64,000 nt of DNA. It comes from Stenotrophomonas sp. BIO128-Bstrain. GTDB lineage: Bacteria; Pseudomonadota; Gammaproteobacteria; Xanthomonadales; Xanthomonadaceae. The position numbers and the translations under genes were made by a program. The notes beneath the pieces are model-generated. The model had not been told where the DNA came from, did no database searches, and worked only from the letters and a program-made list of their open reading frames with translations. Position 1 is the first letter of the stretch. Every line of letters starts with the position of its first letter. The stretch spans positions 4,200,501 through 4,264,500 of the forward strand of contig NZ_CP124620.1 in NCBI RefSeq assembly GCF_030128875.1, in the 5' to 3' direction. Below, one piece after another: positions 11,947 to 17,392 of the stretch.

Positions 11947-11985
11947 GTCATGGACATGACTTGACGAACAACACAGGAGATGGTT

Positions 11986-13110
11986 GTGAAAGCGGAGCTT
12001 ATGGAAGAGCTGTACGCGGGGGTCACCGACCCGGAGCGGATGCAGTCATTCGTTGAACGTCTCGGTCGCGCAGTCGGTTGCCACTCCGGCAGCGTGACCC
12101 TGCGCGACGTGCACGGGGGGCGACACAGGGCGCTGGTCGCGGCCGGCGCGATGGCCGACCCGCGTACGGTGGAGCGCTTCAACGAAGACACGCTCTACTC
12201 GGTGGACAACCTCTGGTTCAACCGGGCCGCGCCGACGATGCGTGCTGGCAGCGTCATCGTCAGCGATCGGGTGGCCACGCTCGATGAGATGCGTGGAACG
12301 CGGTACTACCTGGATTTCCTGCGCCAGATCGACACGCTGCGTTCGGTGGCATTGTGTGCCTCGCGCAAGCCGGACCAGGTGACCATGCTGACCTTCGTGG
12401 GAACCGAGCGGCGCGGTGATTTCGATGCCCGCGAGGTGGCACTGTGCGAAGCGTTGGCCCCTCACTTCGTCAATGCCTTCGAGCTGCGCCAGGCACTGCA
12501 GGACGCGTGGCGGCAGGCAGGAACGCTGGCCCTGCTGCTTCTCGATGAGAACCTGCGGCCAGTATCGGTCAATGCCGGGGGCGAGGAGATGCTGCTGGCG
12601 CGCGTCCTGCGTGTGCGCCGAAAGGCGGCATTGGAGCCGGTGCATCCCGCCTCGCGGGCGGGTTGGAATGCCCTGGTCCGGCGCCTGGCGCTGCGGGGCG
12701 GTCCGGCGCAGGACCCCGGAGAGGATATCGTCGCTCTGCACGATGCAGATGGACTCCTGGCAGGATTCGCATCGCTTCGGCCCTATGGAAAGTACATTCC
12801 CGGTACGGGCACCGCCCGTTTCGTCATGACGGTCAACACGCTGGTGCGCCGCTCCTCGGCGGGGCTGTCCGCCACCCTGCGCGAGCTTTTCGGCCTGACC
12901 CCGGGCGAAGCGACGCTGGCCGTAGCGCTGCATCACCAGGGCGAGCTGTCGGCCGCCGCAGCGACCTGCGGCATCGGTGTCGGGAGTGCGCGGACCCGCC
13001 TGCAGAGCATTTTCGAGAAGACCCGCCTGCATCGGCAGGTGGACCTGGTCAGGATGCTGGACACCCTGAACGGCATGCTGGCCAGTGAGCGCCCGCTGCC
13101 GCTGTACTGA
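11986..13110 (+). CDS. LuxR-type helix-turn-helix transcriptional regulator
   Basis: A 374-residue protein ending in a LuxR/FixJ-like DNA-binding domain (about residues 305-370: LTPGEATLAVALHHQGELSA then SARTRLQSIFEKTRLHRQVD). The N-terminal 180 residues resemble a GAF-like sensor, and no phospho-acceptor receiver is present. An ATG at 11980 sits one base after AGGAG; the GTG at 11986 is seven bases after it, so GTG 11986 is the better start. It is divergent from the three-gene envelope operon, which it may control. The ligand is unknown. Confidence 0.82.
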   Translation: MKAELMEELYAGVTDPERMQSFVERLGRAVGCHSGSVTLRDVHGGRHRALVAAGAMADPRTVERFNEDTLYSVDNLWFNRAAPTMRAGSVIVSDRVATLDEMRGTRYYLDFLRQIDTLRSVALCASRKPDQVTMLTFVGTERRGDFDAREVALCEALAPHFVNAFELRQALQDAWRQAGTLALLLLDENLRPVSVNAGGEEMLLARVLRVRRKAALEPVHPASRAGWNALVRRLALRGGPAQDPGEDIVALHDADGLLAGFASLRPYGKYIPGTGTARFVMTVNTLVRRSSAGLSATLRELFGLTPGEATLAVALHHQGELSAAAATCGIGVGSARTRLQSIFEKTRLHRQVDLVRMLDTLNGMLASERPLPLY

Positions 13111-13221
13111 CGCCCGGGCAGTCGCTCCATGCCGGAGTGGGCCGCCACGTCGGCCTTGGAGCGGCTGCACGCAGGCCCGGGCGGGGTTCCCCCCCGCGCC
13201 GGGCTGAGGTACAGTCGCCGG

Positions 13222-13371
13222 GTGTCCATTCTGACGACCCCGCATACCCTTTCTTCCGCTCGCCGTTGGTGGCGATGGTGGCCTGTTGCCGTCGTCCGTC
13301 CCGCCACCGCCGTTTCCCGGAAGGAAAGTCGTCTTGATTACGCTCGAGCAGTTCCAGCAGCAGGCCGCTGA
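13222..13371 (+). CDS. Possible Trp-rich leader peptide of trpE
   Basis: An ORF starting at GTG 13222 (GAGGT 11 bases upstream; a longer version could start at ATG 13129) contains four Trp codons out of five (W-W-R-W-W, 13267-13281). It runs across the trpE start in another frame and stops at 13369-13371. Four Trp codons immediately upstream of the first gene for Trp synthesis is the hallmark of ribosome-sensed regulation. Unlike a classic leader, it does not stop soon after the Trp codons, and there is no terminator with a T-run. Confidence 0.55.
   Translation: MSILTTPHTLSSARRWWRWWPVAVVRPATAVSRKESRLDYARAVPAAGR
13249..13328 (+). promoter_or_regulatory. Nested RNA structure that could hide the trpE ribosome binding site
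   Basis: CTTTCTTCC (13249-13257) can pair with the trpE Shine-Dalgarno region GGAAGGAAAG (13319-13328) through 9 bp with a one-base bulge. Inside it, GGTGGCG (13268-13274, within the Trp codons) pairs perfectly with CGCCACC (13302-13308). A ribosome stalled at the Trp codons would cover the anti-SD strand and open both helices, freeing trpE translation when charged tRNA-Trp is scarce. The pairing is read from sequence; the mechanism is inferred. Confidence 0.5.
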
Positions 13372-14809
13372 AGGCCACACCCGCATCCCCGTCGTCCGTG
13401 AAGTGCTGTCCGACCTGGACACGCCGCTCTCGGTCTATCTGAAGCTCGCCGACGGCCCGCATACCTATCTGTTTGAATCGGTCGAGGGCGGCGAACGCTT
13501 CGGGCGCTATTCCATCATCGGCCTGCCGGCGCGCCGGGTGTATGCCTTCCACGGCCATACCCTGACCATCAGCGAATCCGGCACCGTGGTGGAAACCCGC
13601 GAGGTCGCCGACCCGTTCACCGAGGTCGAGGCCCTGCGCAGCGCCCACTCGGTGCCGAAGCTGGCCGGTCTGCCCGGCTTCACCGGGGGCCTGGTCGGCT
13701 GGTTCGGGTTCGAGTGCATCGGCTACATCGAACCGCGCCTGGCGCCGCCGCGTGGCCGCGACGAGCTGGGCACGCCGGACATCCTGCTGCTGCACTCCGA
13801 AGAACTGGCGGTGTTCGACAACCTCAAGGGCCGCCTGTACCTGATCGTGCATGCCGACCCGGGCCAGCCCGGTGCATGGGAGGAGGCCCAGGCACGGCTG
13901 GATGCACTGGTCGCCAAGCTGCGCGCCCCGGGTGCCGGCTACCCCGCGCCGATCACCCGCGACGTGCTGGACGAGAACGATTTCGTCTCCGGCTTCACCC
14001 GCGAAGGCTTCATCGCCGCGGTCGACAAATCCAAGGAATACATCCGCGCCGGCGACATCTTCCAGGTGGTGCTGAGCCAGCGCCTGAGCGTGCCGTTCAA
14101 GGCGCGCCCGGTGGATGTGTACCGCGCGCTGCGTGCGCTCAATCCCTCGCCGTACATGTATTTCCTCGATACCGGCGATGTGCAGGTGGTCGGTTCCTCG
14201 CCGGAAATCCTGGTGCGCCTGCAGGACGGGGAAGTCACCGTGCGTCCGATCGCCGGTACGCGCCCGCGTGGCGCGACGGTGGAAGAAGACAACGCGCTGG
14301 AAGTGGAACTGCTGGCCGACCCCAAGGAGCGCGCCGAGCATCTGATGCTGATCGATCTCGGCCGCAACGATGCGGGCCGCGTGTCCAAGGCCGGCACGGT
14401 GGAAGTGGGCGAGCAGTTCGTGATCGAGCGCTACAGCCACGTCATGCACATCGTCAGCGAAGTCACCGGGCAGCTGCAGCCGGGCCTGAGCTATGCAGAC
14501 GTGCTGCGTGCGACGTTCCCGGCCGGCACCGTCAGCGGTGCGCCGAAGATCCGCGCGCTGGAAGTGATCCGCGAGCTGGAACCGATCAAGCGCAACGTCT
14601 ACGCCGGCAGCATCGGCTACATCGGCTGGCATGGCGATGCCGACACCGCCATCGCGATCCGCACCGCGGTGATCAAGGACGGCCGCCTGCACGTGCAGGC
14701 CGGTGCCGGCATCGTCTACGACTCCGATCCCGGCAAGGAATGGGACGAGACGATGAACAAGGGCCGCGCGCTGTTCCGTGCGGTCGCGCAGGCTGCCAAG
14801 GGCCTGTAA
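13334..14809 (+). CDS. trpE: Anthranilate synthase component I (TrpE)
   Basis: Converts chorismate plus ammonia (from TrpG) to anthranilate, the first committed step to tryptophan. Start TTG 13334 lies six bases after GGAAGGAAAG and gives 491 residues, the usual size. Seen are the N-terminal Trp-feedback region (YLFESVEGGERFGRYS), DIFQVVLSQRLSVPF, GSSPEILVR, RPIAGTRPRGAT, and the Mg2+/chorismate site LIDLGRNDAGRVSKAGTVEV. A longer frame from 13286 would put the start inside the leader structure and lacks a ribosome site. trpG follows 75 bases later. Regulation by the upstream Trp leader is inferred. Confidence 0.96.
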   Translation: MITLEQFQQQAAEGHTRIPVVREVLSDLDTPLSVYLKLADGPHTYLFESVEGGERFGRYSIIGLPARRVYAFHGHTLTISESGTVVETREVADPFTEVEALRSAHSVPKLAGLPGFTGGLVGWFGFECIGYIEPRLAPPRGRDELGTPDILLLHSEELAVFDNLKGRLYLIVHADPGQPGAWEEAQARLDALVAKLRAPGAGYPAPITRDVLDENDFVSGFTREGFIAAVDKSKEYIRAGDIFQVVLSQRLSVPFKARPVDVYRALRALNPSPYMYFLDTGDVQVVGSSPEILVRLQDGEVTVRPIAGTRPRGATVEEDNALEVELLADPKERAEHLMLIDLGRNDAGRVSKAGTVEVGEQFVIERYSHVMHIVSEVTGQLQPGLSYADVLRATFPAGTVSGAPKIRALEVIRELEPIKRNVYAGSIGYIGWHGDADTAIAIRTAVIKDGRLHVQAGAGIVYDSDPGKEWDETMNKGRALFRAVAQAAKGL

Positions 14810-14884
14810 CGGCGCATTGCCGAACGGCCTGGCCCGTGCGCGGTTGCGCGCACGCCACTTCCCCATTCAAGACGGACCCTGACC

Positions 14885-15463
<579 letters not shown>

Positions 15464-15496: not shown

Positions 15497-16534
15497 ATGA
15501 CCTTCTCCCCCCAGGAAGCCCTGCAGCGCACCATCGAGCACCGCGAAATCTTCTTCGACGAAATGGTCGACCTGATGCGGCAGATCATGCGCGGTGAGGT
15601 CTCGCCGGTGATGACCGCCGCGATCCTGACCGGCCTGCGGGTCAAGAAGGAAACCATCGGCGAGATCGCCGGTGCGGCCACCGTGATGCGCGAACTCGCG
15701 CTCGCGGTGCCGGTGGAGGACAAGGCGCATCTGGTGGATATCGTCGGCACCGGCGGCGATGGCTCGCATACCTTCAACATCTCCACCTGCGCGATGTTCG
15801 TGGTGTCCGCGGCGGGGGCCAAGGTGGCCAAGCATGGCAACCGCAGTGTTTCCTCCAAGTCCGGCAGTGCCGATGCGGTCGAGGCGCTGGGCGCGATCAT
15901 CGACCTCACCCCCGACGAAGTCGCGCGCGCGATCACCGAAACCGGCATCGGCTTCATGTTCGCGCCGATGCACCACCCGGCGATGAAGGTCGTCGCGCCG
16001 GTGCGCCGCGAAATGGGCGTGCGTACGATCTTCAACATCCTCGGCCCGCTGACCAATCCGGTCGGTGCGACCAATGTGCTGATGGGCGTGTTCCACCCGG
16101 ATCTGGTCGGCATCCAGGCACGCGTGCTGCGCGAACTCGGTGCCGAGCGCGCCTTGGTGGTGTGGGGCCGCGACAACATGGATGAGATCTCGCTCGGTGC
16201 CGGCACGCTGGTCGGCGAGCTGCGCGACGGCAAGGTGCGCGAGTACGAGATCCATCCGGAAGACTTCGGTATCGCGATGTCGGCCAGCCGCAACCTCAAG
16301 GTCGAGAGTCCGGAGGAATCCATCGCCATGCTGCGCGGCGTGCTCGACAACCAGCCCGGCCCGGCGCTGGACATCGTCGCTCTCAACGCCGGCGCCGCCC
16401 TGTATGTGGCCGGTGTCGCCGACAGCATCGCCGATGGCCTGGCCCGCGCGCGCGCGGTGCTGGCCGATGGCAGTGCGCGCTCGCGGATGGAGCAGTACGT
16501 AGCCGCCACCCGCCGCATCCGCGGGGCCGTCTGA
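15497..16534 (+). CDS. trpD: Anthranilate phosphoribosyltransferase (TrpD)
   Basis: Transfers phosphoribose from PRPP to anthranilate. The 345-residue protein has the nucleoside-phosphorylase-like N-terminal helices, the PRPP loop [38 protein letters not shown], and the anthranilate/PRPP segment [12 protein letters not shown], followed by [13 protein letters not shown]. Start ATG 15497 follows AAAGGAC. It is 33 bases after trpG and part of the trpGDC cluster. Confidence 0.97.
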
Positions 16535-16597
16535 GCCCGCGTTTTCAGAATTCAGCGGGGCTGGCCGATAATGGCCGGCCTCCAGGACCCCAATGAC

Positions 16598-17392
16598 ATG
16601 AGCGACATCCTCGATACCATCCTGGCCCGCAAGGCCGAAGAAGTCGCCGCACGCCGTGCCCAGGTGCCGCTGGAGGCGCTGATCGCGCGCGTGGAGCAGG
16701 CCCCGCCGGTGCGGGGGTTCGCCGATGCGCTGCGCGCCTCGATCACCGCCGGCAACCCGGCCGTGATCGCCGAGATCAAGAAGGCCAGCCCGTCCAAGGG
16801 CGTGATCCGCCCTGACTTCCATCCGGCCGATATCGCGGTGAGCTACGAGTTCGGTGGCGCCAGCTGCCTGTCGGTGCTGACCGACGTGGACTTCTTCCAG
16901 GGCAGCGATGCCTATCTGCAGCAGGCCCGGGAGGCCTGCACGCTGCCGGTGCTGCGCAAGGACTTCGTGATCGATGCCTACCAGGTGTATGAAGCGCGCG
17001 TGCTCGGCGCGGACTGCATCCTGCTGATCGTGGCTGCTTTGGACGACCGCCAGCTGGCCGAGCTTTCCGACCTGGCCATGCAGCTGGGCATGGACGTGCT
17101 GGTGGAAGTGCACGACATCGACGAGCTGGAGCGTGCCATCCAGGTGCCGGTGCCGCTGATCGGCATCAACAACCGTAACCTGCGCACCTTCGAGGTCTCG
17201 CTGCAGACCACGCTGGACATGCGCCAGGCCGTACCGCGCGACCGCCTGCTGGTCACCGAAAGCGGCATCCTCGGCCCGGCCGATGTCTCGGTGATGCGTG
17301 AGGCCGGGGTCAATGCGTTCCTGGTCGGCGAGGCCTTCATGCGCGTGGAAGAGCCCGGCGAGGGCCTGCGTCAGCTATTCTTCAGCGCATGA
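16598..17392 (+). CDS. trpC: Indole-3-glycerol phosphate synthase (TrpC)
   Basis: TIM-barrel enzyme that closes the indole ring from CdRP. Starting at ATG 16598 gives 264 residues, the usual length of a stand-alone TrpC not fused to TrpF. Conserved segments are [47 protein letters not shown] and [13 protein letters not shown] longer ORF from 16571 adds nine unconserved residues. The stop overlaps the start of the following HAD gene as ATGA, so those two are translationally coupled. trpF, trpB and trpA are not in this window. Confidence 0.96.

Follow-up and report, generated by a model that had tools for sequence, protein, structure and literature searches.

A Trp-codon leader reading frame that overlaps trpE in Stenotrophomonas and its relatives, and its probable role in translational attenuation

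The trp operon is the textbook example of attenuation by transcription termination. The Escherichia coli trpL leader is a transcription attenuator in which a leader peptide with Trp codons is encoded ahead of trpE and ribosome stalling acts as the sensor. In attenuation of the ermC type a stalled ribosome frees a sequestered Shine-Dalgarno sequence (SD). The ermC leader is described as controlling translation in the excerpt of PMC2965389. For the trpLE(G) genes of Sinorhizobium meliloti, the excerpt of PMC7298713 reports that the RNA rnTrpL begins directly with the Trp leader's ATG, which makes it leaderless. Among Actinobacteria, upstream ORFs (uORFs) rich in the amino acid concerned precede cys biosynthesis genes, with no obvious terminator and a mechanism presented as speculative, and in the LEU element base pairing links the codon region of the leader to the SD of the gene under control, as far as the excerpt of PMC1262725 goes. 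A study of mycobacterial cys leaders concerns leaderless transcripts, to judge from the excerpt of PMC4633059.

The locus analyzed here lies in a window of 64,000 nucleotides from Stenotrophomonas sp. BIO128-Bstrain, whose coordinates are used throughout (Table 1). The Trp codons that the preliminary description had noted before trpE (TGG TGG CGA TGG TGG, encoding WWRWW) are confirmed at their place and conserved among relatives. They are part of a leader ORF of 49 codons that opens with GTG and closes with TGA, crosses the TTG start of trpE and ends at bases 36–38 of that gene, in a frame other than that of trpE. Its start codon lies 6 bases past a TACAGT box, which, given the usual distance between a -10 box and the transcription start, predicts a leaderless mRNA whose 5' end is probably at or near the GTG. 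This ORF, its probable leaderless start, its overlap with trpE and the conservation of the CGA codon go beyond the preliminary description. A simple scan of positions 13100–13400 found neither a sigma-70 consensus promoter nor a terminator-like hairpin in the window leader; Rfam gave no match over the leader and three weak ones (E up to 5) within 12000–15200. Directly 5' of the trpE leader is an ORF of 376 aa (11980–13110) with no Pfam match at 1e-3, whose C-terminal part resembles, by eye, a LuxR-type helix-turn-helix.

Table 1. Sequence features of the trpE leader and the downstream trp genes, in window coordinates.
Feature	Position	Strand	Basis or remark
-10 box TACAGT, candidate trpE leader promoter	13210..13215	+	TANAGT spacing across leaders; no -35 box assigned
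Leader ORF (uORF), GTG start, 49 codons, overlapping trpE out of frame	13222..13371	+	Probably leaderless
Anti-SD arm within the leader ORF	13250..13258	+	MFE; covariation peak in leader nt 15–36
Regulatory codons Trp-Trp-Arg(CGA)-Trp-Trp	13267..13281	+	Conserved Trp codons
Candidate short hairpin UGGUGG/CCGUCG, last two Trp codons with 13289–13294	13276..13294	+	Aligned leaders
trpE SD region, partner of the anti-SD arm	13318..13328	+	MFE, covariation, opening model
trpE, TTG start, anthranilate synthase component I	13334..14809	+	Pfam PF04715, PF00425
Out-of-frame leader stop within trpE; T supplied by position 3 of a GCT (Ala) codon	13369..13371	+	
trpG	14885..15463	+	PF00117; named from family and place
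trpD	15497..16534	+	PF00591, PF02885
trpC	16571..17392	+	PF00218

With a short Trp-rich ORF before the first gene of the pathway, the trpE leader can be classed, on its sequence, among trpL-like ribosome-mediated amino-acid leaders. Like E. coli trpL, it has a Trp-codon leader peptide 5' of trpE and would sense by a stall; unlike trpL, it shows no terminator or T-run, appears to sequester the SD, overlaps trpE and is probably leaderless. The release of a sequestered SD by a stalled ribosome would be shared with the ermC type, whereas the signal would be amino-acid supply instead of an antibiotic and the leader ORF overlaps its target gene. The S. meliloti system differs in being a transcription attenuator that yields the sRNA rnTrpL and a peptide of 14 aa, with no overlap with trpE described in the excerpt of PMC7298713. 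The cys leaders, as the excerpts of PMC1262725 and PMC4633059 present them, have Cys in place of Trp and belong to another phylum. In the LEU element the Leu codons themselves form the stem, together with a pseudoknot (excerpt of PMC1262725), whereas the trpE leader has a separate anti-SD arm 5' of the Trp codons.

The distribution of the leader was examined in relatives. A trpE match was obtained in 186 of 198 genomes of the Xanthomonadaceae family, and upstream DNA was taken from 130 of those 186 (30 loci and 100 stretches) and from 23 of the 80 loci of a second set, giving 153 trpE upstream regions, 149 of them distinct. A motif-free search found an ORF with at least two Trp in five codons in 104 of the 149 regions, compared with 0–12 in 20 dinucleotide shuffles (two of the 104 rows, L053 and L123, resemble chance), and an ORF with at least three in 76 regions, compared with 0–1 in the shuffles. 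The preliminary description had cautioned that GC repeats could produce WWRWW by chance and had left the decision to conservation, which speaks for the Trp codons. A script accepted a leader in 104 of the 130 family regions, spread over 26 of the 37 genera examined. In the second set of loci, relatives that carry it include Stenotrophomonas, Xanthomonas, Pseudoxanthomonas, Lysobacter and Luteimonas. The script left 26 of the 130 regions without a leader, and 22 after correction by eye: L113 and L184 had been dropped as duplicates of the leader-bearing L038 and L041, while L124 and L146 failed its rules and yet have a visible leader. The other 11 of the 37 genera sampled yielded no accepted leader, and neither did loci L046–L054 and L097 of the second set, the majority of which are from Rhodanobacteraceae.

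A set of 113 leaders was defined by the Trp-CGA core and an in-frame start placed behind a -10 box. In 100 of them, 6 or 7 nt separate the box from the start codon. A frame-blind search for TANAGT, 6–7 nt and ATG or GTG returned 91 of the 113, all 91 in frame with the Trp codons; note that this is mildly circular, as the rows had been admitted by some in-frame start behind a looser -10. The script-chosen start of trpE itself is ATG in only 10 of the 113. The amino-terminal half of the leader varies in sequence and length between genera, and the Trp-CGA core is constant.

The predicted MFE structure of the window leader, the one fold considered here, is nested, where a classical trp attenuator has antiterminator and terminator helices that exclude each other. 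An outer helix of nine pairs, one of them G-U, joins 13250–13258 to 13318–13326 and covers the trpE SD, and it encloses an inner stem between 13261–13282 and 13291–13312. This fold is better than that of its shuffles (z -2.55, with 0 of 200 shuffles as good). The anti-SD strand and the SD proposed in the preliminary description, CTTTCTTCC at 13249–13257 and GGAAGGAAAG at 13319–13328, are both present at those positions, and their pairing covaries in the alignment-free test presented below. Its second helix fared less well: GGTGGCG (13268–13274) and CGCCACC (13302–13308) are in place and a nested stem does appear in the MFE structure, but its register there is about 3 nt off and the inner helix shows no covariation (z -0.6), its Trp side hardly varying. 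The spacer pairs with the Trp codons alike in native and swapped sets, and as it is C-rich chance pairing comes easily. The short hairpin UGGUGG/CCGUCG has 91% of its cells paired across 65 aligned leaders with no two-sided changes, and a register shifted by 3 reaches 88%.

In the alignment-free test, the pairing energy between each 5' arm and its own SD was compared with that of swapped partners. Among 72 leaders of less than 85% identity, the energy is -13.94 for own and -11.73 for swapped pairs, and 0 of 5000 permutations were as good; one leader per genus (n = 26) gives -13.45 against -11.46, with 0 of 10,000. Native pairing was likewise matched by 0 of 10,000 permutations for the overlapping leaders with an ATG start (n = 48), and the window's GTG-start group, taken alone (n = 12), shows modest covariation (446 of 10,000 as good). 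In the controls, z is -0.3 for DNA 5' of the promoter, -1.4 for trpE +60 to +108 and -1.3 for a shuffled arm. Covariation peaks in leader nt 15–36 (z -6.4 and -7.3) and is weaker in nt 30–48 (z -3.4). On the side of the SD region, it resides in the 3' half (z -6.0; 5' half z -0.3). A separate observation is that pairing of trpE +12 to +60 is weaker with the SD of the same leader than with the SDs of other species (z +4.9, 72 leaders; 13346–13393 versus 13314–13331 in the window), as if the codons after the start had been selected to leave the SD free of other partners.

Tests on fixed alignment columns give a weaker picture. RNAalifold did not find the outer helix in 65 aligned leaders. The intended outer register pairs 63% of cells (67% in the ATG group, 50% in the GTG group), and two-sided changes in it are no commoner than in slid registers. 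An uninterrupted Watson-Crick helix of at least 4 from GGA is missing in 18 of 69 leaders. Ranked among the alternatives, native pairs have a median of 0.26. The pairing register slides between groups, so that fixed-column tests cannot track the outer helix. The alignment-free test, together with the opening model that follows, nevertheless places the trpE SD in a helix with an arm of the leader.

The energy needed to open six SD bases was modeled on the assumption that a ribosome covers -15 to +14 relative to the A site. The mean cost is 6.62 kcal/mol in free RNA and 3.66 when the 5'-arm codons are shuffled. A ribosome placed on the Trp codon that precedes CGA reduces it to 3.83, and one on the following Trp codon, the second conserved one, to 4.34; in the latter position the cost decreases by more than 0.5 in 57 of the 72 leaders and increases in 4. 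The corresponding values for the window are 7.25 in free RNA and 2.88 and 3.65 with a stalled ribosome. The modeled cost drops as well when the ribosome is at codon 4 (4.56), which means that opening is not unique to a stall at Trp. With the third Trp codon of the window in the A site the modeled MFE structure retains the SD helix, and the first two Trp codons should thus matter most.

The best explanation, which we consider likely, is translational attenuation of trpE through a stall at the Trp codons. The comparison supports a conserved leader, frame and stop, a covarying pairing and the absence of a terminator, to which the following steps add an inferred transcription start, stalling, direction of response and role for the overlap. 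Transcription would begin at or adjoining GTG 13222, and ribosomes would load the leader ORF on the leaderless 5' end. When charged tRNA-Trp is ample, they would pass the Trp codons fast, cross the trpE start in the other frame and leave at 13369–13371; behind them, 13250–13258 would pair with the trpE SD and shut the site. When Trp-tRNA is scarce, a ribosome would pause at 13267–13281, over or beside the anti-SD arm, the helix would be opened, and the accessible SD would allow trpE to be translated. Ribosomes crossing the trpE start may add to repression. The preliminary description had taken this translational view, and the conserved Trp codons, the covarying anti-SD/SD pairing and the lack of terminator-like hairpins in the 113 leaders support it. 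It had also named loss of the Trp codons or of the pairing in related species as grounds for rejection; both are kept, and the observation itself is confirmed.

An alternative, which we judge possible rather than probable, is that repression comes mainly from leader ribosomes elongating through the SD and start codon of trpE, which an upstream stall at Trp would clear. The strength of this explanation is that the overlap has been kept. Fifteen different distances separate the Trp codons from TrpE residue 1, and one frame is held in 111 of the 113 leaders. Ninety-eight leaders run past residue 1, and 91 of them, in 24 of 26 genera, use the same stop (+35), a position at which 1 of 49 trpE genes without such a leader has a stop triplet. 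The codon that gives the T of the shared stop is GCT in 85 of the 91 (the T itself is required by the grouping), whereas GCT makes up 21 of the 247 remaining Ala codons within codons 1–60 of trpE. However, the other 15 leaders of the 113 stop before TrpE residue 1, 14 of them also before their script-chosen start codon (L127 is the one short leader that reaches into the start codon assigned to its trpE), and in these 15 the native anti-SD and SD still pair better than swapped partners (0 of 10,000 permutations, n = 15). The helix is thus maintained without the overlap. It may also be that a leaderless uORF is translated too rarely for occlusion. Helix and occlusion could also act together as two gates of a distinct family architecture, in which a leaderless Trp uORF carries the anti-SD arm and overlaps trpE with a fixed stop about 36 nt inside, and initiation is set by whether a single ribosome is stalled, crossing or gone; this view is held tentatively.

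Attenuation of transcription, either classical or Rho-based within the untranslated leader or trpE, with the Trp stall switching between RNA structures, appears unlikely. The regulated gene and the presence of a Trp-codon leader are as in E. coli trpL. Moreover, rut sites are C-rich, as is the spacer (C 0.50, G 0.23), and untranslated trpE could expose a Rho site as a second layer. On the other hand, the intrinsic terminator and T-run between leader and trpE that characterize the classical attenuator were not detected in the family sequences: a terminator-like hairpin occurs in 0 of 113 leaders, by a scan so strict that it detected only 3 of 26 outside the family, and a run of at least five T between the Trp codons and trpE in 1 of 113. 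The betaproteobacterial Trp-CGA-Arg-Trp leaders differ in this respect, with T6 runs in 9 of 9; in five others from Betaproteobacteria the T runs reach only 2–3. The lack of a visible terminator and T-run, noted for the window leader in the preliminary description, recurs in nearly all family leaders scanned, and as it is what translational control requires it supports the translational reading. It is very improbable that the leader peptide acts in trans in the manner reported for the Sinorhizobium peTrpL. The likely leaderless 5' end that encodes the leader would be common to both systems, going by the excerpt of PMC7298713, but the amino-terminal half of the peptide is what varies between genera and the constant core is Trp-CGA. 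Chance, by which GC-rich repeats would yield WWRWW and any SD would find a partner in a C-rich arm, is barely credible. The region is indeed GC-rich and the spacer pairs equally with native and swapped Trp codons, yet the shuffles fall far below the real count of Trp-rich ORFs, covariation exceeds both swaps and controls, and frame and stop are conserved.

The arginine codon between the Trp codons deserves separate mention. The first Trp is followed directly by CGA in 102 of 102 motif-free leaders, the two chance rows being set aside, and in 112 of the 113 rows, which were chosen by a motif favoring CGA. In the same genomes CGA accounts for 0 of 479 Arg codons within the first 65 codons of trpE. 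CGA is read slowly in some bacteria, and it may be a built-in kinetic brake between the Trp codons. Outside the family, Trp-CGA-Trp or Trp-CGA-Arg-Trp leaders were seen before trpE in Marinobacter, Microbulbifer, Burkholderiales and others (within L058–L112). These gamma- and betaproteobacterial leaders have the same core, with CGA in 22 of 24 rows of the Trp-CGN pattern, but their ORFs end before trpE. A run of at least five T is found in 2 of 14 other gammaproteobacterial leaders and absent from 12. The shared Trp-CGA core suggests a link by descent between the family leader and trp leaders elsewhere in the proteobacteria.

A covariance model of the leader was searched in whole genomes of the order (250) and the class (274), with 14–15 candidates scored per genome. 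In the order search, and among those candidates, matches with E below 1e-7 are confined to the leader's own family; of 15 weaker or second matches inspected, two lie before trpG and the other 13 are unlike leaders. The class search gave weak matches in 13 genomes outside the family, of which seven were inspected and none resembles a trpE leader. Several of these seven are antisense to an apparent clpB (by eye). One genome carries a second leader copy (L257, G052:C2:182919-183030, minus strand) with TACAGT, 6 nt, ATG and the peptide motif ARWWWP, which ends about 150 nt before an apparent trpG, some 3 kb past trpE. Another has a decayed leader remnant before trpG (L258, G019:C11:53908-53983).

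Within the window's own genome, a strict pattern applied to nine loci found no similarly built leader ahead of other biosynthesis genes; for L226 (upstream of thrA) and L227 an ORF listing took the place of the strict scan. The region upstream of ilvC (L221) has, by eye, hairpins followed by T-runs and no leader rich in branched-chain codons; it is possibly another attenuator. A different recurring element, resembling GGAGGCAATCCCGCCTCC plus CCGTCGTCC, with variants, was noticed by eye upstream of trpE in genomes with and without the leader (L123, L131, L151, L157, L159, L160, L167, L178, L184, L185 and L197), in several loci just 3' of an apparent rpe. Rfam searches of six loci returned a single match, weak and apparently unrelated, in L118, a locus outside the list for this element.

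A literature search found no description of a trpE leader in Xanthomonas or Stenotrophomonas, and an earlier account may still exist; the excerpts of PMC8632094 and PMC10272879 have no bearing on it. As far as could be checked, the elements are known singly and their combination is new. Most genera of the family that were examined appear to retain the Trp-codon sensor of the textbook attenuator with its output shifted to translation initiation and an overlapping reading frame included in the device. The leader would offer a compact system in which to study how a sensor can persist when its output changes. The retention of CGA in gamma- and betaproteobacterial Trp leaders poses a question that is directly testable. 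For the biology of the family, the proposed switch predicts how trpE would be regulated in many plant-associated bacteria.
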